Shown here piece after piece: positions 34,896 to 45,133 of a stretch of 47,561 nt of DNA. Source of the DNA: a virus. Made by a program: the position numbers and the translations under genes. Each line of letters opens with the position of its first letter. The first letter of the stretch is position 1. A model generated the notes under the pieces. The model saw nothing but the letters and a program-made list of their open reading frames with translations, was not told where the DNA came from and did not search any database. Location: IMG/VR virus record IMGVR_UViG_3300045612_000359, positions 1 through 47,561 of that record, one strand, 5' to 3'.

Positions 34896-34924
34896 TTGAC
34901 AGGGGGCTAAATACATGCTATAGT
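34896..34924 (+). promoter_or_regulatory. Combined early and late promoter before the lysin gene
   Basis: TTGACA (34896-34901), a 17-bp spacer and TATAGT (34919-34924) with TG one base upstream (extended -10). CTAAATA (34907-34913), the late element, lies within the spacer, so both host sigma70 and gp55 polymerase could initiate here, about 12 bp apart. Confidence 0.85.
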
Positions 34925-35058: not shown

Positions 35059-35718
35059 ATGCTAATTTCAACAATTACAGCCTTGTCCATTACAACAGCA
35101 TTCAATTCACCATTGATGTTGCCAATTAGTGCTCCTCACGAGCCAATTGAATCTAAAAGTTCTCTTGAGTTAGTAATTCAAGATTACATAAAGGATTCAA
35201 AAGAACCCAGACCATTGAAATTAAATACAACGGAGAAAATCACTGAACAAAATGTAGAAAAGGTCTGGAAATGTAAAGGCTGCAATCAAACAGAAGCTTA
35301 TACTTTGGAATACCTACAAAAACAAGGTATCAAAGATAAGAATGCTCTCGCCACCATTATGGGTAATATCAAACAAGAAAGTGATTTTATTCCAAACATT
35401 TGTGAAGGTGGTGCGATTACAAGATACGAATCTTGTGGTGCTGGTTATGGATTAATTCAGTGGACTTCAAGTGACAGATACTACCGATTAGGTTCTGTTG
35501 CTCGTAGTTCAGGATTCAGTCCATCATCCTTGGAAGGTCAACTCAAACATATGTTGACTGAACCTCAATGGAAAGAGATTGAATATCAAATGAAATCTCC
35601 TGGAAAATCTATTGATAGTTATATGAATGTTGCTTATCGTTGGATTGGTTGGGGTATTCATGGTGCTCGTACCAATTTTGCATATCGTTATGCAAATAAA
35701 ATGTATATGGAAGGTTGA
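35059..35718 (+). CDS. Lysozyme-like endolysin with N-terminal signal (Phage_lysozyme2/PF18013 type)
   Basis: A 219-residue protein. MLISTITALSITTAFNSPLMLPISA is a probable signal/anchor, followed by a ~60-residue linker with CKGCNQ, and a lysozyme-like domain: LEYLQKQGIKDKNALATIMGNIKQESDFIPNIC (catalytic Glu in QES), YGLIQWTSSDRYYRLG and the helix LEGQLKHMLTEP. It would cleave host peptidoglycan. If the N-terminal segment is functional, export would be independent of a holin hole. Preceded by the dual promoter and structured leader. Confidence 0.85.
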   Translation: MLISTITALSITTAFNSPLMLPISAPHEPIESKSSLELVIQDYIKDSKEPRPLKLNTTEKITEQNVEKVWKCKGCNQTEAYTLEYLQKQGIKDKNALATIMGNIKQESDFIPNICEGGAITRYESCGAGYGLIQWTSSDRYYRLGSVARSSGFSPSSLEGQLKHMLTEPQWKEIEYQMKSPGKSIDSYMNVAYRWIGWGIHGARTNFAYRYANKMYMEG

Positions 35719-35748: not shown

Positions 35749-35784
35749 CCCATTAAACTTTATAAACTCATTTGGAGAATGAAA

Positions 35785-36153
35785 ATGATTGACACAGTTT
35801 TGACTATTGTTATAAGTCTCTCTCAACAGAAACTTTATGCACATACTGCTACAGGTAATGTTGTGTCCTTTCCGGTTTCAACTGGAAAAGAATCTACACC
35901 TACGCCGATTACTGAAGATAAAATCGCATTAAAACGTAAAGTCACAGATTTTTATGGTCCAGGATATTATATTAAAGATGTTCCTTATGTAATGTGTTTG
36001 GATAAATATCCTTCACATTGTATTCATCCAAATCTTTCCAGTAGACCTTTAGGTCATCCATATTCTGGTGGATGTATTCGTATGAATGATAAAGATGTTC
36101 AATGGGTTTTTGAAAGAACACCAGTAAATACCCCAGTCAAAATAGTTTTTTAA
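35785..36153 (+). CDS. L,D-transpeptidase (YkuD-like)
   Basis: A 122-residue YkuD-domain protein. ATG 35785 is favoured over 35779 because GGAG (35774-35777) is seven bases upstream. LTIVISLSQQKLYAHTATGNVVSFPVSTGK is the usual first strand region; the catalytic segment is HPYSGGCIRMNDKDVQWVF, with Cys in place but the normal second His-Gly (SHGC) changed to SGGC; an upstream CIHPNLS may contribute the His. The domain starts at the N-terminus, with no signal peptide, although these enzymes act on peptidoglycan outside the membrane. It could reach the wall during lysis or ride in the virion. Confidence 0.88.
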   Translation: MIDTVLTIVISLSQQKLYAHTATGNVVSFPVSTGKESTPTPITEDKIALKRKVTDFYGPGYYIKDVPYVMCLDKYPSHCIHPNLSSRPLGHPYSGGCIRMNDKDVQWVFERTPVNTPVKIVF

Positions 36154-36159
36154 TATGGG

Positions 36160-36188
36160 TTGACAAATTTTTAAGTATTTGGTATAGT
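36160..36188 (+). promoter_or_regulatory. Early-type promoter for the tRNA cluster
   Basis: TTGACA (36160-36165), 17-bp spacer, TATAGT (36183-36188); tRNA-Arg starts nine bases later. Confidence 0.88.
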
Positions 36189-36196
36189 AAATTTAT

Positions 36197-36271
36197 GACT
36201 CAGTAGCTCAGTCGGAATAGAGCATCTGCCTTCTAAGCAGTTGGTCGGGGGTTCAAATCCCTCCTGAGTCG
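36197..36271 (+). tRNA. tRNA-Arg (UCU)
   Basis: Acceptor GACTCAG pairs with CTGAGTC (36264-36270), discriminator G. The anticodon loop CTTCTAA gives UCU; T arm GGGGG-TTCAAAT-CCCTC. All stems pair; CCA is not encoded. Decodes AGA, common in this AT-rich genome. Confidence 0.95.
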
Positions 36272-36272
36272 C

Positions 36273-36325
36273 TTGGTGGCCTTTAAGGGTCACCAAATTT
36301 AAGGGGGGGTCCTCTAACACCCCCC
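36273..36325 (+). promoter_or_regulatory. Two hairpins between tRNA genes
   Basis: TTGGTGGCC-TTTAAG-GGTCACCAA (36273-36296) and GGGGGGT-CCTCTAAC-ACCCCCC (36304-36325). The second has no T-run; both may be processing spacers or partial terminators. Confidence 0.6.
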
Positions 36326-36340
36326 ACCAAAAATACATCT

Positions 36341-36411
36341 GCGGGTATAGTTTAGGGGTAAAATGCCATCCTTCCAAGTTGGAGTCACCGGTTCAATTCC
36401 GGTTACCCGCT
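36341..36411 (+). tRNA. tRNA-Gly (UCC)
   Basis: Acceptor GCGGGTA pairs with TACCCGC (36404-36410). Anticodon loop CTTCCAA gives UCC. T arm ACCGG-TTCAATT-CCGGT. The anticodon stem CCATC/GTTGG has one T-T mismatch. No CCA encoded. Decodes GGA. Confidence 0.93.
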
Positions 36412-36421
36412 CTTTCACCAT

Positions 36422-36429
36422 TATAAATA
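36422..36429 (+). promoter_or_regulatory. Late promoter (TATAAATA) in the tRNA region
   Basis: Exact TATAAATA; the start point would coincide almost with ATG 36435. Confidence 0.7.
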
Positions 36430-36434
36430 ACCAA

Positions 36435-36635
36435 ATGAAAAAGAAAATATTCAATAAACTTATTCAAAAACCACTGAGATTTCATCATCAGGACATACAT
36501 GAAGAGTTAGACGAAATTAAAGGAATGATACGAGATGTTAAAAATCAGATGCAAAAATTGCAACACCGAATTGGAATCCCTGAACAAACCTCAAATATGT
36601 GGTTGTCAGAATATGACGACCATCTATGGAGATAA
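36435..36635 (+). CDS. Small coiled-coil protein (66 aa)
   Basis: ATG 36435 encodes MKKKIFNKLIQKPLRFHHQDIHEELDEIKGMIRDVKNQMQKLQHRIGIPE..., a basic N-terminus then a heptad-like helix (ELDEIKGMIRDVKNQMQKLQHRI). It has a TATAAATA element six bases upstream and so almost no leader. Its last 101 bases overlap the next gene in a different frame. Function unknown. Confidence 0.65.
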   Translation: MKKKIFNKLIQKPLRFHHQDIHEELDEIKGMIRDVKNQMQKLQHRIGIPEQTSNMWLSEYDDHLWR

Positions 36636-36783
36636 AATAACTGCGAAAGATTTATCTGAAGTAGTAATAATTAATTCTCAAGTTAAATTGCCAAAAACCT
36701 CCCATTTAACTGAAGATGATATGATGTTTCAAGAATCTAGAAAAGCTAGAAAAGTTCGTAAATTGGACTTTGAAATTCGTTAG
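36535..36783 (+). CDS. Zinc-ribbon-like conserved small protein (82 aa)
   Basis: ATG 36535 encodes MLKIRCKNCNTELESLNKPQICGCQNMTTIYGDKITAKDLSEVV.... The CxxC...CGC spacing suggests a small zinc ribbon. The sequence CGCQNMTTIYGDKITAKDLS is a pattern I recall from phage hypothetical proteins. The tail is Lys/Arg-rich. It overlaps the coiled-coil gene by 101 bases, so it may depend on translation of that gene. Confidence 0.75.
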   Translation: MLKIRCKNCNTELESLNKPQICGCQNMTTIYGDKITAKDLSEVVIINSQVKLPKTSHLTEDDMMFQESRKARKVRKLDFEIR

Positions 36784-36930
36784 GAAGGTTGGCAAACTCC
36801 AACCCCCAAAGTATAAATTTAATTAGTCTTGGACCTGACTGAAAAAGGTACCCTGGTGGAGTCAAATGACCCAAACTGTCTCGGGATGACATTAAAAGCG
36901 CCCTGGTCGGGTAATCCCCCCTCCCACCTC
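36784..36930 (+). other. Non-coding interval with small hairpins, GC-richer than surroundings
   Basis: No gene seen. GGTTGG-CAAACT-CCAACC (36787-36804), TGTC-TCGGGA-TGACA (around 36879-36893) and a repeated CCCTGGT (two copies) are visible, as well as C-rich runs just before the tRNA-Pro. It could be a decayed tRNA or a small RNA. Confidence 0.4.
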
Positions 36931-37002
36931 GCGGGTATAAGTCGGCGGTAGACGGCTTGCTTTGGGAGCAAGAGGACATTGGTTCAAATCCAATCACTCG
37001 GA
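36931..37002 (+). tRNA. tRNA-Pro (UGG) with imperfect acceptor stem
   Basis: Anticodon stem-loop CTTGC-TTTGGGA-GCAAG gives UGG. T arm ATTGG-TTCAAAT-CCAAT; D arm AGTC...GACG. The acceptor GCGGGTA against CACTCGG pairs only at positions 2-6, with mismatches at 1:72 (G-G) and 7:66 (A-C). The 5' ten bases GCGGGTATA match the neighbouring tRNA-Gly. It may be functional after processing, or decaying. Confidence 0.7.
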
Positions 37003-37011
37003 TTAAAATTA

Positions 37012-37018
37012 CTAAATA
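37012..37018 (+). promoter_or_regulatory. Late-type element (CTAAATA) before the antitoxin-like gene
   Basis: CTAAATA 29 bases before ATG 37041. Motif match only. Confidence 0.5.
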
Positions 37019-37040
37019 AAATGAAATTTTAAACAGATAA

Positions 37041-37202
37041 ATGACAGAAATTACTTTTGGGGAATTCCAGGAATATTTTGAAGACTACATTGAAAGAGTA
37101 GAAAATGGTGAGTCATTTTTAATTAAAGGAGGATCTTGTGATTTTGTTATTCTTCCAGTATCAGAACATGAAGAATTAATCCGAATAAGCAACCGAGATT
37201 AA
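37041..37202 (+). CDS. Solitary Phd/YefM-like antitoxin (53 aa)
   Basis: ATG 37041 to TAA 37202 encodes MTEITFGEFQEYFEDYIERVENGESFLI..., then CDFVILPVSEHEELI. The pattern (helix ... RVENGExxxIxxxxxxxAxLxPxxEyEEL) is that of the N-terminal dimerisation/DNA-binding domain of Phd/YefM antitoxins. There is no toxin gene (Doc, YoeB or RelE type) beside it, and the C-terminal toxin-binding extension is nearly absent. It lies between two tRNA genes. It may block a host toxin or act only as a repressor. Confidence 0.7.
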   Translation: MTEITFGEFQEYFEDYIERVENGESFLIKGGSCDFVILPVSEHEELIRISNRD

Positions 37203-37210
37203 TTTTTTGA

Positions 37211-37282
37211 GGTTCTGTCGCATAATGGTTAATGCGGCCTCCTTATAAGGGGCTCATCTGGGTTCAATTCCCAGCAGAACCA
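37211..37282 (+). tRNA. tRNA-Ile (UAU)
   Basis: Acceptor GGTTCTG pairs with CAGAACC (37275-37281), discriminator A. Anticodon stem GCCTC/GGGGC, loop CTTATAA giving UAU. T arm CTGGG-TTCAATT-CCCAG. CCA not encoded. It reads ATA, rare in cyanobacterial hosts but frequent here. Confidence 0.92.
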
Positions 37283-37296
37283 TTATCCATTTGGGG

Positions 37297-37324
37297 TTGA
37301 CATTTTTACAATTCTGACTATAAT
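37297..37324 (+). promoter_or_regulatory. Consensus early-type promoter for the glycan cassette
   Basis: TTGACA (37297-37302), 16-bp spacer, TATAAT (37319-37324); the predicted start near 37331 is 16 bases before the GT11 ATG. Confidence 0.88.
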
Positions 37325-37346: not shown

Positions 37347-38150
37347 ATGATTGGAATTAATTATTTGGGAAAACGAAAGGAACGATTAGCAAATCAGATG
37401 TTTCAATATGCAGCGGTAAAAGGAATTGCTGCAAATTGTGGATATAATTACTGTATTCCACCTTCAAATTTTAAAGATTCTTCTGATGAATGGGAGGAGC
37501 ATCAACTGCTCGTTCCCTTTAAATTGCAAACTGTAAATCCATTAAATGTTCAGTATATTGATTTTTCCAGACCTGTAATTCAGGAATCAGGATTTTGTTT
37601 TGATCAAAATCTTTTTAATAGTTGTCCAGATTGGGTATGTCTTGTTGGTTATTTTCAAACTGAAAAGTATTTTATAAATGTAAAAAATGAACTTAAACAA
37701 GACTTTGCATTCAAGGATGAAATTCATAATCCCTGCGTAGAAGCAATTCGGCAAATTGAAAATCCAATTTCACTACATGTACGAAGAACTGATTATGTAA
37801 CAAATCCAAATCATACTACATTAAGTTTAGATTATTATGAGGAGGCATTGAGTAAATTTGATTCTGATAGAAATGTTTTAGTTTTTTCAGATGATCCTAT
37901 ATGGTGTAAAAATCAATCTTTATTTTCTTCGGATAGATTTTTTGTTTCTGAAGGAAATTCAAATTATACCGACTTATGTTTAATGACTCTTTGTTCTGAT
38001 CATATTATTGCAAATAGTTCCTTTAGTTGGTGGGGAGCTTGGTTATCGGAAAACAATGAGGTTGTAGCCCCTTCTGGATGGTTTAGAGGGACAAATTTAG
38101 AACATCTAGATACTGTAGATTTATTACCTGAAACTTGGGAGATTATTTGA
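37347..38150 (+). CDS. GT11 alpha-1,2-fucosyltransferase
   Basis: A 267-residue family 11 glycosyltransferase. The motifs are clear: LANQMFQYAAVKGIA (family G-x-GNQMFQYA; the Gly is replaced by Leu-Ala), GYFQTEKYF, SLHVRRTDY (GDP-fucose-binding HxRRxDY), and ANSSFSWWGAWL near the C-terminus. It would transfer fucose from GDP-fucose to a galactose acceptor. First gene of the cassette, directly under the promoter at 37297. It overlaps the GT6 gene by one base. No GDP-fucose synthesis genes are in the window, so the donor would be from the host or other phage genes. Confidence 0.92.
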   Translation: MIGINYLGKRKERLANQMFQYAAVKGIAANCGYNYCIPPSNFKDSSDEWEEHQLLVPFKLQTVNPLNVQYIDFSRPVIQESGFCFDQNLFNSCPDWVCLVGYFQTEKYFINVKNELKQDFAFKDEIHNPCVEAIRQIENPISLHVRRTDYVTNPNHTTLSLDYYEEALSKFDSDRNVLVFSDDPIWCKNQSLFSSDRFFVSEGNSNYTDLCLMTLCSDHIIANSSFSWWGAWLSENNEVVAPSGWFRGTNLEHLDTVDLLPETWEII

Positions 38151-38866
38151 TGAAAGTCGCAATTAGTTTTATTGGAACTGGTAAATACCTCAATTTTTTA
38201 CCGAAATGGTATGAGAAAGTTAATGAAAATTTTCTTCCTGATGCAGAAAAAACGTTCTTAGTTTTTACTGATGGTGAAGGAGATTTCCCCGAAGATATCA
38301 AAACATATAAACAACCTCATTTAGACTGGCCATATATCACACTGAAACGTTTTGAGATTCTTCAAAGTGCAAGAGAAGAAATTGAAAAAAATGATTGGTT
38401 TGTATTTTTAGATGCTGATTTGATTCCAGTATCTAAAACTCTAGCTGAAGATTTTTTCAAAGAAGAACTTCTATATTTTGGAGTTCATCATCCATGCCAC
38501 TTCTTAAAAATGCCTCCACATGATAATCCCCCGGGAGCATTTGATACTAATCCACTATCTTCTGCTGGAATTGAAGAAGGTGATGATGTATCTGTTTATT
38601 ATCAGGGATGTATTTGGGGGGGAAAAGTACCAGAAGTTCTTGAGATGATTGATACATTACATGAAAGAATAGAAACTGATTTGAAAAACAATGTAATTGC
38701 TCAGTGGCATGATGAGAGTCATTTAAATAAATTCTTTTCTCAGAATCAAGATAAGGTAAATACTCTTCACCCAGAATATGCCTTTCCTGAAGTATTTGGT
38801 CAATATTGCGATTTTGAACCAAAACTTCTACATCTGTCTAAAGATAATCGGAAATATCATGTCTAG
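38150..38866 (+). CDS. GT6 glycosyltransferase (ABO-type alpha-1,3-Gal/GalNAc transferase family)
   Basis: A 238-residue protein from ATG 38150 (MKVAISFIGTGKYLNFLPKW). GT6 motifs: FVFLDADLIPV (metal-binding D-x-D as in vertebrate members; many bacterial ones have N-x-N), HHPCHF, YYQGCIWGG, and WHDESHLNKFF, where H-x-ESHLN is diagnostic, plus EYAFPE. Family members add Gal or GalNAc alpha-1,3 to a Gal, often a fucosylated one. A GT6 homologue in cyanophage P-SSM2 has, as I recall, been noted before. The preceding gene is a GT11 fucosyltransferase, the enzyme that normally makes the GT6 acceptor. Confidence 0.9.
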   Translation: MKVAISFIGTGKYLNFLPKWYEKVNENFLPDAEKTFLVFTDGEGDFPEDIKTYKQPHLDWPYITLKRFEILQSAREEIEKNDWFVFLDADLIPVSKTLAEDFFKEELLYFGVHHPCHFLKMPPHDNPPGAFDTNPLSSAGIEEGDDVSVYYQGCIWGGKVPEVLEMIDTLHERIETDLKNNVIAQWHDESHLNKFFSQNQDKVNTLHPEYAFPEVFGQYCDFEPKLLHLSKDNRKYHV

Positions 38867-39509
38867 TATTGCTATTCTTTATTCGGGACAACCCCGAAAT
38901 TTTATAGAATGTTTTGATAATCATATTGAATTTCTATTTGCTCCGAATGTGGGAAGTACAGTAGATATATTTGCTCATTTTTGGAAAACCAACGATGAAC
39001 CTTTGATTAAATTTGTTAATAATGTTGCAAATATAAAAACAATTTTTTGGGAGTTGCCAAAAGAATTTTCTCATGATACAATTCATTCAGATCCTAGATA
39101 TTATCACCCACTCAATAATATTGTTTCTCAAGCATATAGCTTGTATAAAACTTCATATTTGATGAATCAATATATTCAAAATTCTAAACTTGAAAAATAT
39201 GATTATGTAATTAGAACACGGACAGACAATTGGTTCGTTGAACCTTTGGGTAAATTGTCTAATTATGATTCTTCAGGACTTCATATTACAGATATTCAAA
39301 GTCATACTGATTATGCTTTAGGTGATACTTTTGCATTTGGTGATTATGATACAATGATGAAGTATTGTAGACTATATCCAGATTTTGAAGAGATTTGTGA
39401 AGAAGGCTCATTGGTAAATCCGGAATGTCTTCTTGGTTGGAATATTAGAAGAAATAAACTCAAGGTTCATAAACATGCATTTTACCCAAAACTTTACAGA
39501 GACTTATAA
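38859..39509 (+). CDS. Putative glycosyltransferase-cassette protein, 'GQPR' family member 1
   Basis: A 216-residue protein from ATG 38859 (MSSIAILYSGQPRNFIECFDNHIEFLF). The N-terminal SGQPRN, VDIFAHFWK, YDYVIRTRTDNWFVEPL (possible D-x-D-like nucleotide-sugar region) and ALGDTFAFGDYDTMMKYCRLYPD define a family with the genes at 40894 and 42680. These proteins resemble capsule or LPS-associated putative glycosyltransferases, though I cannot name the family. Overlaps the GT6 gene by 8 nt. Confidence 0.78.
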   Translation: MSSIAILYSGQPRNFIECFDNHIEFLFAPNVGSTVDIFAHFWKTNDEPLIKFVNNVANIKTIFWELPKEFSHDTIHSDPRYYHPLNNIVSQAYSLYKTSYLMNQYIQNSKLEKYDYVIRTRTDNWFVEPLGKLSNYDSSGLHITDIQSHTDYALGDTFAFGDYDTMMKYCRLYPDFEEICEEGSLVNPECLLGWNIRRNKLKVHKHAFYPKLYRDL

Positions 39510-40897
39510 TGAGTAAATTAGTAATTTTTGATCTTGATGGTGTTCTTATAGATAGTAAAGATGTTCATTATGAAGCTTTAAACCGAGCTTTATCTAAAGT
39601 AGGATCAGAATTTGTCATTACTCGTCAAGAACATGTAAGTGTTTATGATGGGCTTCCAACAAATGATAAATTAGTAATACTTACAAAAAATAAAGGGTTA
39701 CCCCCAGAATCATATGAACAGATTTGGAGAGATAAGCAAGAAGAAACTTTAGTTATTTTTGCAGAACAGGTTAATAAAGATTATGAATTAATGGGATATT
39801 TTTCCCAACTTAAAGAGTGTGGATTTAATATTGCTGTCGCTAGTAATAGTATTCGGAATACTGTTAAATTAATTTTACTTAGATTGGGTGTATTAGAATT
39901 TGTTGATCTTTTTGTGAGCAATGAAGACGTAACACGCAATAAACCATATCCAGAAATGTATTGGAAGTGTATGATTGCATTTGGTTCTATTCCGGAAAAT
40001 ACTGTTATAATTGAAGATAGCCATATTGGTAGAAAAGGAGCAACTGATAGTAAAAGTCATTTAATTGCTGTTGATAATCGTAATGATTTGACTCAGGAAA
40101 AAATCAATAGAGTTAAACGAATTCTCAATGCACAAAAACAAAACAAAATTCCCTGGAGATCTGAAAAAATGAATGTTCTTATTCCCATGGCTGGTGCCGG
40201 TAGTAGATTTGCAAAAGTTGGATATACTTTTCCAAAACCTTTAATTGAAGTTCGCACAAAACCAATGATTCAAGTTGTTGTGGAGGGTTTAAATGTTGAG
40301 GCAAAATATACTTATGTGGTTCAGAAAGAACATTATGACAAATATCACCTTTCATATATTTTAAATCTATTAACTCCGGATTGCAATATTGTTATGACGG
40401 ATGGTTTAACTGAAGGTGCAGCATGTACAACTCTTTTGGCTAAAGAGTTTATTGATAATGAAGAACCACTTATTATTACTAATTCGGATCAATTGATTGA
40501 ATGGGATAGTAATGAAACCCTGTATGCATTTAGTAATGATAATGTTGATGGTGGTATTGTAACTTTTCCAGCCACTCATCCAAAATGGAGTTTTGCTAAA
40601 CTTGGAGATGATGGTTATGTATGTGAAGTTGCTGAAAAGAAACCAATTAGTGAACATGCAACTGCTGGAATTTATTATTGGAAACATGGTTCGGATTATG
40701 TAAAATATGCTGAACAAATGATTGAAAAAGATATTCGTACAAATGACGAATTTTATGTTTGTCCAGTTTATAATGAAGCAATTGAAGATGGTAAAAAAAT
40801 TCGGATTAAAGAAATTGCAGTTGAAAATATGTGGGGTCTGGGGACTCCAGAAGATTTAAACTATTTCCTTGAAAACTATAGAGGTATTATTGTATGA
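39509..40897 (+). CDS. Bifunctional HAD phosphatase + sugar-nucleotidyltransferase fusion
   Basis: A 462-residue two-domain protein. Residues 1-~210 are a HAD phosphatase: FDLDGVLIDS (catalytic DxDGV), VASNSIRN (motif II) and NKPYPEMYW...VIIEDSHIGRKGA (motifs III-IV). From residue ~217 a nucleotidyltransferase domain: MNVLIPMAGAGSRFAKVGYTFPKPLIEV (G-x-GxRf...KP signature), IITNSDQLIEWD, and LGTPEDLNYF at the C-terminus. Together they would dephosphorylate and activate a sugar phosphate to NDP-sugar for the cassette; the sugar is not known. The HAD part is a paralogue of the gene at 41624. It overlaps the next gene by four bases. Confidence 0.85.
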   Translation: MSKLVIFDLDGVLIDSKDVHYEALNRALSKVGSEFVITRQEHVSVYDGLPTNDKLVILTKNKGLPPESYEQIWRDKQEETLVIFAEQVNKDYELMGYFSQLKECGFNIAVASNSIRNTVKLILLRLGVLEFVDLFVSNEDVTRNKPYPEMYWKCMIAFGSIPENTVIIEDSHIGRKGATDSKSHLIAVDNRNDLTQEKINRVKRILNAQKQNKIPWRSEKMNVLIPMAGAGSRFAKVGYTFPKPLIEVRTKPMIQVVVEGLNVEAKYTYVVQKEHYDKYHLSYILNLLTPDCNIVMTDGLTEGAACTTLLAKEFIDNEEPLIITNSDQLIEWDSNETLYAFSNDNVDGGIVTFPATHPKWSFAKLGDDGYVCEVAEKKPISEHATAGIYYWKHGSDYVKYAEQMIEKDIRTNDEFYVCPVYNEAIEDGKKIRIKEIAVENMWGLGTPEDLNYFLENYRGIIV

Positions 40898-41622
40898 AAG
40901 TAGCACTATTATTTTTTGGACAACCGAGATTTATTGATAATCCTAAAATTGAAGAAGTATATAAGGAATCTATTTTAAAGAGATATGATACTGATGTTTT
41001 CTGCCATACTTGGTGGAAAGAATCTAATGAAGAATACGATTATTCTTCTTGGTCTCGTATTTCCAAATGTCCAATTCCTAAAAATGCATTGGAATTGATC
41101 TGTGAAAAATATGAACCATTACTTCTTCAACATGATGAACCAACTAAATTTGAATTACCAAAAAATGCAAAATATTATATTGATGAAAAATTTACTAATA
41201 AACATCCCGAAGGTCATTGGAACGAAAGCAACTATAGTAATATTTTATCACAGCTTCAATCAATTAAGATTGTATCTGAATTATTTGATGCTTATAGGAA
41301 ATGTCCAGAAACTAAACAATCATATGAGTGGGTAATTCTTGCTCGTTATGATACGATTTTAGAAAACTTTCCAAATTTGGAAGAGTGTGATTCTAGTAAA
41401 TTTTATCTTCCCGGACATCATTCAAGATTTCCAGATACGATTCAATTTTTTGGAACAAAGTATATTAATTGGGCCAAAAATGCATTTATTGATGTAGGTG
41501 ATGTTTATGAAGAAATTTGGGAACCTTCTCCAGAAGCCTTTAAAATGGGATCTTTCTTGAGAAGATTTTCCATAAATGATTTAGTACCATGTCCCATGAA
41601 TGCTCATGCAGTAAGAGGTTAA
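40894..41622 (+). CDS. 'GQPR' family member 2
   Basis: A 242-residue protein: MKVALLFFGQPRFIDNPKIEEVYKESILKRYDTDVFCHTWW..., then WVILARYDTILENFPNLEECDSSKFYLPGHHSRFPDTIQFFG, which parallels the member at 42680. RYDT and the GQPR start suggest a nucleotide-sugar-binding Rossmann-type N-terminus. The two HAD genes and GQPR genes alternate, consistent with duplication of a HAD-GQPR unit. Role in glycan assembly is inferred from position. Confidence 0.78.
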   Translation: MKVALLFFGQPRFIDNPKIEEVYKESILKRYDTDVFCHTWWKESNEEYDYSSWSRISKCPIPKNALELICEKYEPLLLQHDEPTKFELPKNAKYYIDEKFTNKHPEGHWNESNYSNILSQLQSIKIVSELFDAYRKCPETKQSYEWVILARYDTILENFPNLEECDSSKFYLPGHHSRFPDTIQFFGTKYINWAKNAFIDVGDVYEEIWEPSPEAFKMGSFLRRFSINDLVPCPMNAHAVRG

Positions 41623-41623
41623 C

Positions 41624-42247
41624 ATGATTGATATTGAATTGTGTGTATTTGATGTGGATGGGGTTCTTGTAAATAGTAAAAATTTACATTACCCATCAAC
41701 TGCTATGGCTATTGCTGAATATGGTTATACTTATAGTAGAGTTGAAGATGAAAATTTTGGAACAATTCCAACACGAAAAAAATTAGAAAGTCTAGCAGAA
41801 GAAAATAAAATCAGTTATGAGAATATTGAAGACATTTGGAAATTGAAGGAAAAATATTCTTGGGAATTATTTGATCAAAATGTAATTTGTAATACTAAAA
41901 TTAAAGATCTTTTTCATAAATTAAAAAACTCTAATATTAAAATAGCACTTGCATCTAATGCAAGGTATAGTTTTATAGATAAAGTTATTGAACTTTTAGA
42001 TATTCATGATTATATTGATCTTGTATTAAGTGCTCAGGAAATAATACCAAAACCAGATCCCGAAATTTATTTAATGGCGATGAAAATTTTGGGAGTTTCT
42101 CCTGATAAAACACTTATCTTTGAAGATAGTGAAGTTGGAAAAGCTGCAGCTTATGCAAGTGGAGCAAATGTATATGAAGTGTCTAGTTACGATGAATTAA
42201 GCAGTTCTATATTTAATGAAAATGAAACTTATAGCACATCGCGGTAA
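41624..42247 (+). CDS. HAD-superfamily phosphatase
   Basis: A 207-residue beta-phosphoglucomutase/phosphoglycolate-type HAD hydrolase. VFDVDGVLVNSKNLHYPST (nucleophile D and acid D), ALASNARYSFIDKV (motif II), PKPDPEIYLMA and TLIFEDSEVGKAAAYASGA (motifs III/IV). It is a stand-alone paralogue of the N-terminal domain of the gene at 39509. Substrate likely a sugar phosphate but unshown. It overlaps the next gene by 32 bases. Confidence 0.9.
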   Translation: MIDIELCVFDVDGVLVNSKNLHYPSTAMAIAEYGYTYSRVEDENFGTIPTRKKLESLAEENKISYENIEDIWKLKEKYSWELFDQNVICNTKIKDLFHKLKNSNIKIALASNARYSFIDKVIELLDIHDYIDLVLSAQEIIPKPDPEIYLMAMKILGVSPDKTLIFEDSEVGKAAAYASGANVYEVSSYDELSSSIFNENETYSTSR

Positions 42248-42683
42248 TTTTGAGGGAATCAATCCCTTGATGGAAAATAAACCAGAATACATAGATGCAG
42301 CAATTGATGCCGGATACGATGTAGAAATTGATGTTCGGTATGAGAGGCAAACTGGAGAATTGTATTTGGGTCATGATGATCCCCAATACTTGATCACTTG
42401 GTATTGGTTAGGAGCAAGAAAAAATAATATTTGGATACACTGTAAAAATATAGATGCTCTTTATGAATTCTCTAGTGGTACAAGTGGTTTTAACTACTTC
42501 TGGCATCAAGAGGATAATTTTACATTAACTAGTAGAAATTATATTTGGACTTATCCCGGAAAAGCATATACTCCCAGATCAATTATAGTTATGCCAGAAG
42601 TGAAAATGGGAGTTGACATATCCGATTTGAGGGCCTATAATTGTTTTGGAGTTTGTAGTGATCTAGTGGGGCAATTAAAATGA
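42216..42683 (+). CDS. GDPD-like (glycerophosphodiesterase-fold) protein
   Basis: A 155-residue protein (start 42216, or 42222 giving MKLIAHRGN). The pattern LIAHRGN...MENKPEYIDAAIDAGYDVEIDVRY...GELYLGHDDPQY matches the GDPD superfamily: HRG, ExDV and HD. The domain is shorter than usual and lacks the later conserved segments, so the barrel may be partial. It may act on phospho-diester linked glycans. Its 3' end contains a perfect promoter (42613-42641). Overlaps the upstream gene by 32 nt and the next by 4 nt. Confidence 0.78.
   Translation: MKMKLIAHRGNFEGINPLMENKPEYIDAAIDAGYDVEIDVRYERQTGELYLGHDDPQYLITWYWLGARKNNIWIHCKNIDALYEFSSGTSGFNYFWHQEDNFTLTSRNYIWTYPGKAYTPRSIIVMPEVKMGVDISDLRAYNCFGVCSDLVGQLK
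42613..42641 (+). promoter_or_regulatory. Consensus sigma70 promoter inside the cassette
   Basis: TTGACA (42613-42618), 17-bp spacer, TATAAT (42636-42641): perfect hexamers, within the GDPD-like coding sequence; predicted start near 42648, 32 bases before the next ATG. Confidence 0.8.
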
Positions 42684-43435
42684 AAATTGCATGTTTATAT
42701 TATGGCCAACCTAGATTTACTGCAAATCCATATTGTTATGAATCTCACAAGAAGTTTATTTTTGATCGTTATGATACTGACATTTACGCTCACTTATGGT
42801 GGGATGATGAGAATCAAAATCAGTGGGATAGATCACATGTATCTTCGGATTGGGAATATTCAACTTGGCTTCAGATGGAAAACTGCCCCAAGGATCGTGA
42901 TGATTTAATTCGGTTTGTTGAAAAGTGGAAACCCTCATCACTAAAAACTGAAAATCCTAAAGAATTTTCCAATGAAAAATTATTTTCTGAAATAAAGAAT
43001 AAATTTGATTCTGAAAGATTTCATCGTAAAAATTTTCATAATCAACTTTCTCAATTATATTCTATAGAACAAGTTGGAAAACTTTTAGGAGATCACAAGA
43101 GTAAATATGATTTTATTATTACAATTCGTACAGATTTGAATATTTGGGATTATCCAAATCTTGAAGACTTAAATCCTGATAAATTTTATCTATCCTCTCA
43201 TTCAGCACATTTTCCAGATCTAGGATTTATTTTTGGACAAAGATTCACTAAAATTTTAAATGCATATACTCATACAATGAATGGATTGGTAAATTTAAAT
43301 GAATGTTGGGCACCTGTTGCAGAAGCTTTTAAGTTTTCTTGCTATAATAGATATTATAGTCAAAACGATTTAATGAGAATTCCACTACCATTAAGACTGG
43401 TTCGTGGCGTAGATTGTAAAGGACCCACTTGGTAA
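42680..43435 (+). CDS. 'GQPR' family member 3
   Basis: A 251-residue protein: MKIACLYYGQPRFTANPYCYESHKKFIFDRYDTDIYAHLWWDDE..., with FIITIRTDLNIWDYPNLEDLNPDKFYLSSHSAHFPDLGFIFG, and C-terminal PVAEAFKFSCYNRYYSQNDLMRIPLPLRLVRG. Close to member 2 throughout (RYDTDxxxHxWW, NLExxxxxKFYLxxHxxxFPD, PSPEAFK/PVAEAFK, V..VRG). Preceded by its own promoter. Putative glycosyltransferase role from context. Confidence 0.78.
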   Translation: MKIACLYYGQPRFTANPYCYESHKKFIFDRYDTDIYAHLWWDDENQNQWDRSHVSSDWEYSTWLQMENCPKDRDDLIRFVEKWKPSSLKTENPKEFSNEKLFSEIKNKFDSERFHRKNFHNQLSQLYSIEQVGKLLGDHKSKYDFIITIRTDLNIWDYPNLEDLNPDKFYLSSHSAHFPDLGFIFGQRFTKILNAYTHTMNGLVNLNECWAPVAEAFKFSCYNRYYSQNDLMRIPLPLRLVRGVDCKGPTW

Positions 43436-43437
43436 TT

Positions 43438-44388
43438 ATGAAAATAACACTTATCGGCCCAGGAATTATGCCAATCCCCCCTACTGGATGGGGAGCTGTG
43501 GAAATTCTAATATGGGACACTAAAGTAGCTTTAGAAAATCTTGGACACGAAGTTCAGATCATAAACACTAAGGATGCTAAGCAAATTATAGAAGATGTGA
43601 ATTCATTTCGCCCAGATTTTGTTCACATTCACTATGATGAATTTATTGGAATTTATCCTTATATTCAATATCCAAAGGCGATTACAAGTCATTTTGGATA
43701 TCTTGAAAGGCCCAATATGTTTAATGGTTATGCAAATGTATTTAATGCCTTTGGGCAAATACAACCTAATGTATTTTGTCTTTCTGAAGGAATTGCAAAT
43801 ATATACAAAGTTCTTCTAAGTATTCCTGCAAATAAACTTTTCATTACACCGAATGGTGTATGTTCTGATGTATTCAGTTATACTGAAGAGCCTGAATATG
43901 GGGATCGTAGTATCTACCTTGCAAAAATTGATTACAGAAAACGTCAACACATATTCCAATCTATTGAAAGTCTTTGGTTTGCTGGAAATATTGCTGATGG
44001 TAGATTCAATGCAAATAAAAATTATCTGGGTGAATGGGACAAGGAAACTCTTTACAAAAATTTAACGCACTATGGTAACTTAGTTCTTCTCTCCGATGGA
44101 GAAGCTCATCCTTTAGTTTGTATGGAAGCCTTGACAGCAGGATTAGGTGTGGTAGTATGTGAATGGGGAAAGGCTAATTTGGATACTAGTCGGGAATTCA
44201 TAACTGTGATTCCCGAAAATAAAATTAATAATATTGAATATGTGGAATCCAAAATTATAGAAAACCGAGAATATTCTTTACAACATCGTAAAGAAATTTT
44301 AGAATATTCTAAAAACTTTGATTGGATTAAAGTTATTAAAACTTATTATTTACCCAGTGTAGAACAAATTATTCATGGACAAAAATAA
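43438..44388 (+). CDS. GT4-type glycosyltransferase
   Basis: A 317-residue GT-B glycosyltransferase from ATG 43438. MKITLIGPGIMPIPPTGWGAVEILIWD is the N-terminal glycine-rich start; FITPNGVCSDVF marks the linker; the C-terminal VLLSDGEAHPLVCMEALTAGLGVVVCEWG holds the EAxPLxxxEA (E-x7-E) donor-binding motif. It transfers a sugar from a nucleotide donor. The length is short but complete for GT4. Overlaps the next gene by 14 nt. Confidence 0.9.
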   Translation: MKITLIGPGIMPIPPTGWGAVEILIWDTKVALENLGHEVQIINTKDAKQIIEDVNSFRPDFVHIHYDEFIGIYPYIQYPKAITSHFGYLERPNMFNGYANVFNAFGQIQPNVFCLSEGIANIYKVLLSIPANKLFITPNGVCSDVFSYTEEPEYGDRSIYLAKIDYRKRQHIFQSIESLWFAGNIADGRFNANKNYLGEWDKETLYKNLTHYGNLVLLSDGEAHPLVCMEALTAGLGVVVCEWGKANLDTSREFITVIPENKINNIEYVESKIIENREYSLQHRKEILEYSKNFDWIKVIKTYYLPSVEQIIHGQK

Positions 44389-45133
44389 ATCAGCATATAA
44401 ACTGAATGGGATTGGTCCCATTTATTACTTAAATCTTGATGGTCAACCTGAGAGAAGGCAGAATGTTGAAACTCAATTTGACTATTGGGAAATACAAAAT
44501 TATGAAAGAATTTCTGCTTATGATGGTAGAGATGATGATTTAAGTGATATTATTGTAGGAAGATACCCAGAAATTTCTTCCGGTGAAGTTGGTTGTGTTA
44601 CTTCACATCTTAAAGCAATGAAGCACTGGATGAGTGTATCTGAAAGTGATTATGCAATAATGTGTGAAGATGATATTGATCTAGAGACAGTAAAATACTG
44701 GCCATTTACTTGGAAAGATTTTTATTCTTATATTCCCTATGATTGGGACGTTGTACAACTTGCAGTAATTAATCCCCGGAAATTACTTGGAAATCTTCAT
44801 CCAAGACTTGTTGATGATTTTTCTACCGCATGTTACATGATCAATCGTAGATATGCTCAAAAACTTACCAGTCTTCATGTTCGTGGAGAAAAATACAAAT
44901 TAGATAACGGAGTTCGTCCTAGAGCAGTTGCTGATGATCTGATATATAATGCAGGAAAGACATATTCTTTCCCAGCATTTGTATATAAAGTTGATTTAGG
45001 TTCTACTATTCATCCTGAACATGTTGATGTTTATCATAAAGGTAGCAGAGACGGTTTGTTGAATTGGTGGCAAAATGAATCAAGTAAAATGAATGTGGAA
45101 GATTTCTTCCAATTTGAGTTTAATAATCTTTAA
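44375..45133 (+). CDS. GT25-family (LPS-type) glycosyltransferase
   Basis: A 252-residue protein. IYYLNLDGQPERRQNVETQFDYWEIQNYERISAYDGRDD (N-terminal INLxxxxxR), GEVGCVTSHLKAMKHWM (G-x-G-x-x-SH), YAIMCEDDIDLE (EDD, metal-binding) and PRAVADDLIYNAGK are the family features. GT25 enzymes commonly add galactose to LPS. Last gene in the cassette; hli follows with a gap of 11 bases. Confidence 0.9.
   Translation: MDKNKSAYKLNGIGPIYYLNLDGQPERRQNVETQFDYWEIQNYERISAYDGRDDDLSDIIVGRYPEISSGEVGCVTSHLKAMKHWMSVSESDYAIMCEDDIDLETVKYWPFTWKDFYSYIPYDWDVVQLAVINPRKLLGNLHPRLVDDFSTACYMINRRYAQKLTSLHVRGEKYKLDNGVRPRAVADDLIYNAGKTYSFPAFVYKVDLGSTIHPEHVDVYHKGSRDGLLNWWQNESSKMNVEDFFQFEFNNL

Follow-up and report, generated by a model that had tools for sequence, protein, structure and literature searches.

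In Escherichia coli O86 the synthesis of the blood-group-B O-antigen employs a glycosyltransferase of family GT11, WbwK, and one of family GT6, WbnI, in a single glycan pathway. The GT11 enzyme makes Fuc-alpha-1,2-Gal, to which the GT6 enzyme then adds an alpha-1,3-linked sugar (PMC4202792). The GT6 enzymes BoGT6a, BgtA and WbnI act on this disaccharide, the product of GT11 enzymes (PMC3961637, PMC4202792). GT6 genes in two cyanophages were mentioned in 2014 (PMC3961637). Both families are already annotated in GenBank phage records: the cyanophages S-CAM9, S-8S53, S-8S56, B23, DSL-LC02 and DSL-LC03, Bellamy and P-SSM2 carry the same families as the locus described here, mostly in the same order. 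A paper interpreting the cyanophage GT11-GT6 pair was not found in the literature searched, which was thin on subscription journals.

The window, i.e. the whole stretch of DNA analysed, is 47,561 bases (47.6 kb) long; it is an IMG/VR virus record and a fragment of a larger genome. It codes for T4-like core genes (major head protein, DNA polymerase, replicative helicase, nrdA/nrdB), and its nearest DNA matches were cyanophages of the Kyanoviridae, foremost Synechococcus phage DSL-LC03 (LC03) from Dishui Lake. The source is thus a T4-like cyanophage, a virus of freshwater cyanobacteria, in agreement with the preliminary description of this DNA. A ten-gene glycan cassette (37347-45133) is situated in a neighbourhood of tRNA, hli and ferredoxin genes, with four tRNA genes (36197-37282) before it and an hli-like gene after it. 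An Rfam scan of the window recovered these four tRNAs only and no wcaG RNA. Just before the tRNA cluster, a tail-lysozyme-type gene (35059-35718) adjoins a YkuD L,D-transpeptidase-like gene (35779-36153). The features of the cassette are:

37297-37324, plus strand: sigma-70 (early-type) promoter consensus TTGACA-N16-TATAAT, 12/12 match, 23 bases upstream of the start codon of GT11
37347-38150, plus strand: GT11 glycosyltransferase of the alpha-1,2-fucosyltransferase family, 267 aa (PF01531, PHROG 2644, AlphaFold)
37776-37793, plus strand: HxRRxD motif of GT11 (H-V-R-R-T-D, residues 144-149; 27 aligned GT11)
38148-38152, plus strand: TGATG stop/start overlap of GT11 and GT6 (sequence)
38150-38866, plus strand: GT6 glycosyltransferase (PF03414, PHROG 3317, AlphaFold)
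38411-38419, plus strand: D-A-D metal-binding motif of GT6, residues 88-90 (alignment)
38603-38611, plus strand: donor-pocket tripeptide Q152-G153-C154 of GT6, equivalent to codons 266-268 of human AT/BT
38705-38719, plus strand: catalytic W-H-D-E-S of GT6, residues 186-190, equivalent to W189-E192 of BoGT6a
38859-39509, plus strand: next cassette gene, PHROG 13607 'GQPR' family (PHROG match)
39509-40897, plus strand: HAD phosphatase fused to a sugar-nucleotidyltransferase (PF13419 and PF00483)
40894-41622, plus strand: second PHROG 13607 protein (PHROG match)
41624-42247, plus strand: HAD hydrolase, beta-phosphoglucomutase-like (profile match)
42216-42683, plus strand: PHROG 34507 protein (PHROG; syntenic LC03 gene named glycerophosphodiester phosphodiesterase)
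42680-43435, plus strand: third PHROG 13607 protein (PHROG match)
43438-44388, plus strand: GT4-like glycosyltransferase (PHROG 33732, 583 bits; PF13439 below cut-off)
44375-45133, plus strand: GT25 glycosyltransferase, last cassette gene before hli (PF01755, 39.6 bits)

The three PHROG 13607 paralogues, with 'GQPR' N-termini, had no Pfam family above cut-off and are possibly unrecognised glycosyltransferases. The copy after GT6 is also kept in S-CAM9-like and LC03-like phages, the fusion of HAD phosphatase and sugar-nucleotidyltransferase is retained across many related cyanophage cassettes, and GT25 is found near the end of many of them too.

The family assignments of the preliminary description, GT11 and GT6, held against Pfam profiles. 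The GT11 reading frame matched PF01531 (Glyco_transf_11) with 93.6 bits (E 1.7e-26, cut-off 23.9) and PHROG 2644 with 344 bits. Throughout the alignment of 27 GT11 sequences H144, R146 and D149 were invariant and R147 near-invariant; HxRRxD is the motif of alpha-1,2/1,6-fucosyltransferases (PMC4202792). The AlphaFold model (pLDDT 89) predicts a GT-B fold of the fucosyltransferase type, with FUT8, AtFUT1, NodZ and POFUT1 as the nearest solved folds at modest TM scores of 0.43-0.58. A single-sequence search of solved structures with GT11 yielded no match, a profile search weak matches to FUT8 only. The GT6 reading frame matched PF03414 (Glyco_transf_6) with 73.4 bits (E 1.8e-20, cut-off 25) as well as PHROG 3317; against NCBIfam Gltr_6 (NF041524) it reached E 3e-50, but its 170.7 bits stayed below the 250-bit cut-off. 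The phage enzyme belongs to the GT6 family and stands outside this curated bacterial subfamily. With phmmer, BoGT6a of Bacteroides ovatus (4ayj) was obtained at E 1e-24 and human ABO transferases at E 2e-15. A comparison of structures had been proposed in the preliminary description; the GT6 model (pLDDT 94) matched BoGT6a with TM 0.87-0.89 and human GTA/GTB with about 0.80. The identity to the GT6 of LC03 is 73 %. Second, weaker GT6-profile matches of about 92-101 bits occurred in relatives (L002:7473-8279, L029:15485-16291, L043:2475-2990); those checked were rejected as GT6, being PF09612 HtrL/YibB proteins. The profile matches suggest that this uncharacterised family may be distantly akin to GT6.

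The catalytic motifs of the GT6 are intact. W, H, D and E of the catalytic loop were invariant in both GT6 alignments (A1, A2), and residues W60, T64, R67, H114, W186-E189 and K231 correspond to W66, T70, R73, H122, W189-E192 and K231 of BoGT6a; W66, T70, R73, H122, W189, H190, D191, E192 and K231 are named in the substrate complexes of that enzyme (PMC3961637). BoGT6a (4AYJ/4CJ8) is the best match in sequence and fold, at 30 % identity, and differs nevertheless in three respects: it is metal-independent with N-A-N, has the donor tripeptide AGG and carries T134 in the acceptor loop, whereas the phage enzyme has D-A-D, QGC and Ala/Ser at the position of T134. Human GTA and GTB share with it the GT6 fold, the DxD motif and a WHDES-type catalytic loop, but are only 22 % identical, have LGG or MGA as tripeptide and are Golgi membrane enzymes. 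The O86 pair is a likeness by family and published chemistry; it belongs to a bacterial O-antigen cluster, while the phage GT6 combines D-A-D with QGC. That D-A-D sets the phage enzyme apart from the N-x-N of many bacterial members, as first described, was confirmed: 15 of 80 bacterial GT6 loci sampled had D-A-D and nearly all others N-A-N or a variant. Of the 75 phage GT6 in the sample, 72 combined QGC with DAD and HPC. These motif frequencies are valid for the pattern-scan sample only, since genomes and viruses were scanned with WHDESH or QGC patterns and the best 80 were kept, which biases the sample towards relatives of the window GT6.

Characterised donor tripeptides are LGG or AGG for human A, MGA for B, GGA for Forssman and HAA for alpha-3-GalT (PMC6351642). 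No counterpart of QGC was found among the characterised GT6 tripeptides, and the phage enzyme thus carries neither the A- nor the B-type signature. We infer UDP-Gal as the preferred donor, Gal being more likely than GalNAc, because a larger residue at position 266 excludes GalNAc in human GTB (PMC4202792). In the acceptor loop, T134 of BoGT6a aligns with A130 of the phage GT6, a position held by Ala/Ser in nearly all of the phage clade, and the loop ahead of A130 carries an insertion. With T134 replaced and the loop extended, the enzyme may use an acceptor other than Fuc-alpha-1,2-Gal. The 'A/B-antigen step' ascribed to this gene was not supported by the tripeptide, the Ala/Ser exchange and the insertion.

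The association of the two families was strong in phages. Distinct phage GT6 loci flanked by 1.5 kb or more in each direction numbered 44, and at 43 of them a GT11 gene was present within 1.5 kb; the sole exception was an unannotated 642-kb uncultured-phage record. After clustering at 80 % identity, GT11 was directly upstream of GT6 in 21 of 28 phage clusters. GT6 was found in 71 phage records, usually beside GT11, and the pair is therefore not a one-off. GT11 was found in 104 records, and eight GT11-only phage stretches examined contained one to three GT11 each and no GT6. GT6 rarely occurs without GT11 while GT11 often occurs without GT6, the pattern to be expected of a GT6 that requires the product of GT11. 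According to the GT11 tree, the partners of GT6 stem from several separate GT11 lineages; in SynMITS9220M01 and L069 GT6 is paired with a different GT11 branch, again overlapping or adjacent. In bacteria, with loci sampled by GT6 similarity alone, GT11 was located on 32 of 119 GT6 flanking sides at 0-1 kb versus 6 of 309 at 2-5 kb (Fisher p 3.5e-14), about 14 times the background. There GT11 was upstream of GT6 in 9 cases and downstream in 20, thus the arrangement was assembled repeatedly. Such a short-range enrichment, in both orders, is predicted if GT6 depends on the product of GT11. A functional coupling of the two genes is supported by the neighbourhood statistics of both phages and bacteria, and the genomic association supports a coupling of the H-then-A/B type.

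These observations led to the reading that GT11 and GT6 would form a functionally coupled two-step side-branch module within a phage cassette for glycan remodelling, acting on the host surface; we judge its chances as even. GT11 would transfer L-fucose from its GDP form onto a terminal hexose of the acceptor glycan, and the metal-type GT6 would add an alpha-1,3-linked hexose to the residue made in the first step. Regarding Fuc-alpha-1,2-Gal (H) as acceptor, the coupling to GT11 points towards it and the altered acceptor loop away from it. That loop and the altered donor pocket also favour a somewhat unlikely alternative, in which both enzymes act on one polysaccharide at separate positions, GT6 being independent of the GT11 product and the adjacency reflecting a shared cassette. 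Intervening genes between GT11 and GT6 in P-SSM2, ACG-2014f and the L019 group fit this alternative, as does the location of GT11 next to other glycosyltransferases in phages lacking GT6. It accounts poorly for the one-sided co-occurrence at 43 of 44 loci, for the bacterial enrichment in both orders and for a pairing that outlasted the exchange of the GT11 lineage.

The donor supply for GT11 varied among the relatives. The genes gmd and fcl are located immediately before GT11 in LC03, L051, L081, L083 and L104, and further up the cassette in LC02, ACG-2014f and others. The immediate upstream neighbour of GT11 in S-CAM9-, Bellamy- and SynMITS9220M01-like phages bears the annotation 'UDP-glucose 4-epimerase' or 'NAD-dependent epimerase'. 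The S-CAM9 protein (AOV60552.1, L005:6083-7204) matched the GDP-mannose 3,5-epimerase of Arabidopsis (2c59) with E 6e-81 and keeps the Cys of SSACIYP, YxxxK and the Lys of GG-EKAPAA. By sequence it is a GDP-mannose 3,5-epimerase, with relatives in L006 and L027, and occupies the slot before the pair where other phages carry gmd and fcl; for the epimerases of Bellamy and SynMITS9220M01, the link to it is similarity alone. Upstream sequence was available for 51 distinct loci, of which 15 had the epimerase, 12 gmd/fcl, none both and 24 neither, a mutual exclusion with p 0.008, kinship uncorrected. S-SCSM1 carries both, with no GT6 in the stretch read. The window fragment of 47.6 kb contained none of the fucose-synthesis or epimerase genes (gmd, fcl, GDP-mannose 3,5-epimerase).

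GDP-L-galactose has the shape of GDP-L-fucose with a 6-hydroxyl in addition, and for this resemblance either L-Fuc or L-Gal may be the sugar added first, depending on the lineage. In epimerase-bearing relatives GT11 would then probably transfer L-galactose, which may be the 'H' sugar there. The designation of GT11 as the 'H' step stands as far as the family is concerned; it is weakened by the GDP-mannose 3,5-epimerase that feeds GT11 in a large subset of the relatives. With the QGC pocket, the rebuilt acceptor loop and two donor routes in relatives, the term 'ABO-like' goes too far for the specificity of the GT6. The pair of the window is a further member of the known GT11-GT6 arrangement, a variant by donor pocket and donor supply, and not a new kind of system. 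A more specific reading, which we regard as doubtful, would be a distinct cyanophage capping module of the H-to-A/B type with an interchangeable 'H' sugar, either L-fucose (from gmd and fcl or from host GDP-fucose) or L-galactose (from the epimerase), followed by the QGC GT6. If it applied, infected cells would show a phage-specific branched trisaccharide.

The adjacency and overlap of the two genes noted initially were found as a one-base overlap in the TGATG junction; DSL-LC02 and DSL-LC03 have a one-base overlap too, and a translational coupling of GT11 and GT6 is likely. A start of GT6 at TTG 38135 was rejected, as the relatives begin at the position equivalent to ATG 38150. Perfect sigma-70 consensus sites occurred three times in the window versus 0.05 expected. 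The placement of a promoter 838-853 bases before the GT6 start is common to the related contigs L013, L039, L040 and L047. From this consensus, the cassette genes would be read early in infection from a candidate sigma-70-type promoter. The T4 late-promoter core TAAATA was not enriched and uninformative. Further perfect or near-perfect sigma-70 matches were located at 42613-42641, inside the glycan cassette, and at 34896-34924 and 36160-36188, all on the coding strand.

The most likely target of the coupled module would be a surface polysaccharide of the infected cell early in infection, and the benefit could be altered phage receptors on the host or less adsorption by competitors. Seroconversion glycosyltransferases encoded in gtr operons of temperate enterobacterial phages alter the host surface; they are membrane-linked and operate with a flippase. 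The analogy lies in phage-encoded glycosyltransferases, but the gtr systems are temperate and flippase-bearing. For cyanophage LPS-type genes, modification of the host surface was proposed, without proof (PMC9602691). No strongly hydrophobic membrane protein of the flippase or polymerase type was seen in the cassette, an observation in favour of the main alternative to a host-surface target, namely that the pair adds its sugars to proteins of the phage virion itself, in tail or fibre. Chloroviruses offer a parallel, their capsid protein being glycosylated by enzymes that the virus encodes. Furthermore, a tail-fibre gene is close to the cassette in ACG-2014f, and 2OG-oxygenase or prolyl-4-hydroxylase-like genes in some related cassettes could prepare a protein acceptor. 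The early type of the promoter before GT11, the location of the cassette among tRNA, hli and ferredoxin genes and the lack of a tie to a specific virion protein render a virion target unlikely.

A survey of 2010 raised the possibility of 'stuffer DNA' for large cyanophages and left the function open (PMC3037559). A non-functional cassette filling the phage head would be in line with the highly variable glycan gene content among cyanophages. The median pairwise dN/dS in phages was 0.105 for GT6 and 0.121 for GT11; values of about 0.1 in both genes reveal that the pair is maintained by purifying selection. Together with invariant catalytic motifs and the conserved GT6-GT11 pairing, this makes the 'stuffer' explanation highly improbable. 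Intact motifs, selection, the near-strict one-way dependency and the bacterial precedents render the question of function versus 'stuffer' directly testable.

In the GT6 tree, where the row L001 labelled 'bact' is the window's own GT6, DxD sequences were parted from NxN sequences (SH-aLRT 99). The cyanophage clade (SH-aLRT 98) is located within the DxD part, with sequences of uncultured Omnitrophota, Pacearchaeota and Saprospiraceae MAGs as sisters (SH-aLRT 97). A DxD, QGC branch is thereby added to the GT6 family, useful for understanding metal and donor choice in ABO-type enzymes. The Cyanobiaceae-like family sampled is presumably the host family, psbA in one member being part of the basis. 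In this family, GT6 was present in 3 of 300 sampled genomes; 13 of 151 contained GT11 and 88 of 151 a gmd scoring over the curated cut-off, thus GDP-fucose precursors are often available in the hosts sampled. The two usable host-family GT6 were about 27-30 % identical and clustered with the GT6 of P-SSM2 (SH-aLRT 83), not with the window clade. A recent host origin of the pair was unsupported, as GT6 and GT11 are rare in the hosts sampled and the host GT6 are outside the window clade. Within the short stretches read around the rare host-family GT6 genes (L194, L195, L196), no GT11 was nearby. These three genes code for the donor tripeptide QNC, and the two long sequences cluster with the GT6 of P-SSM2.
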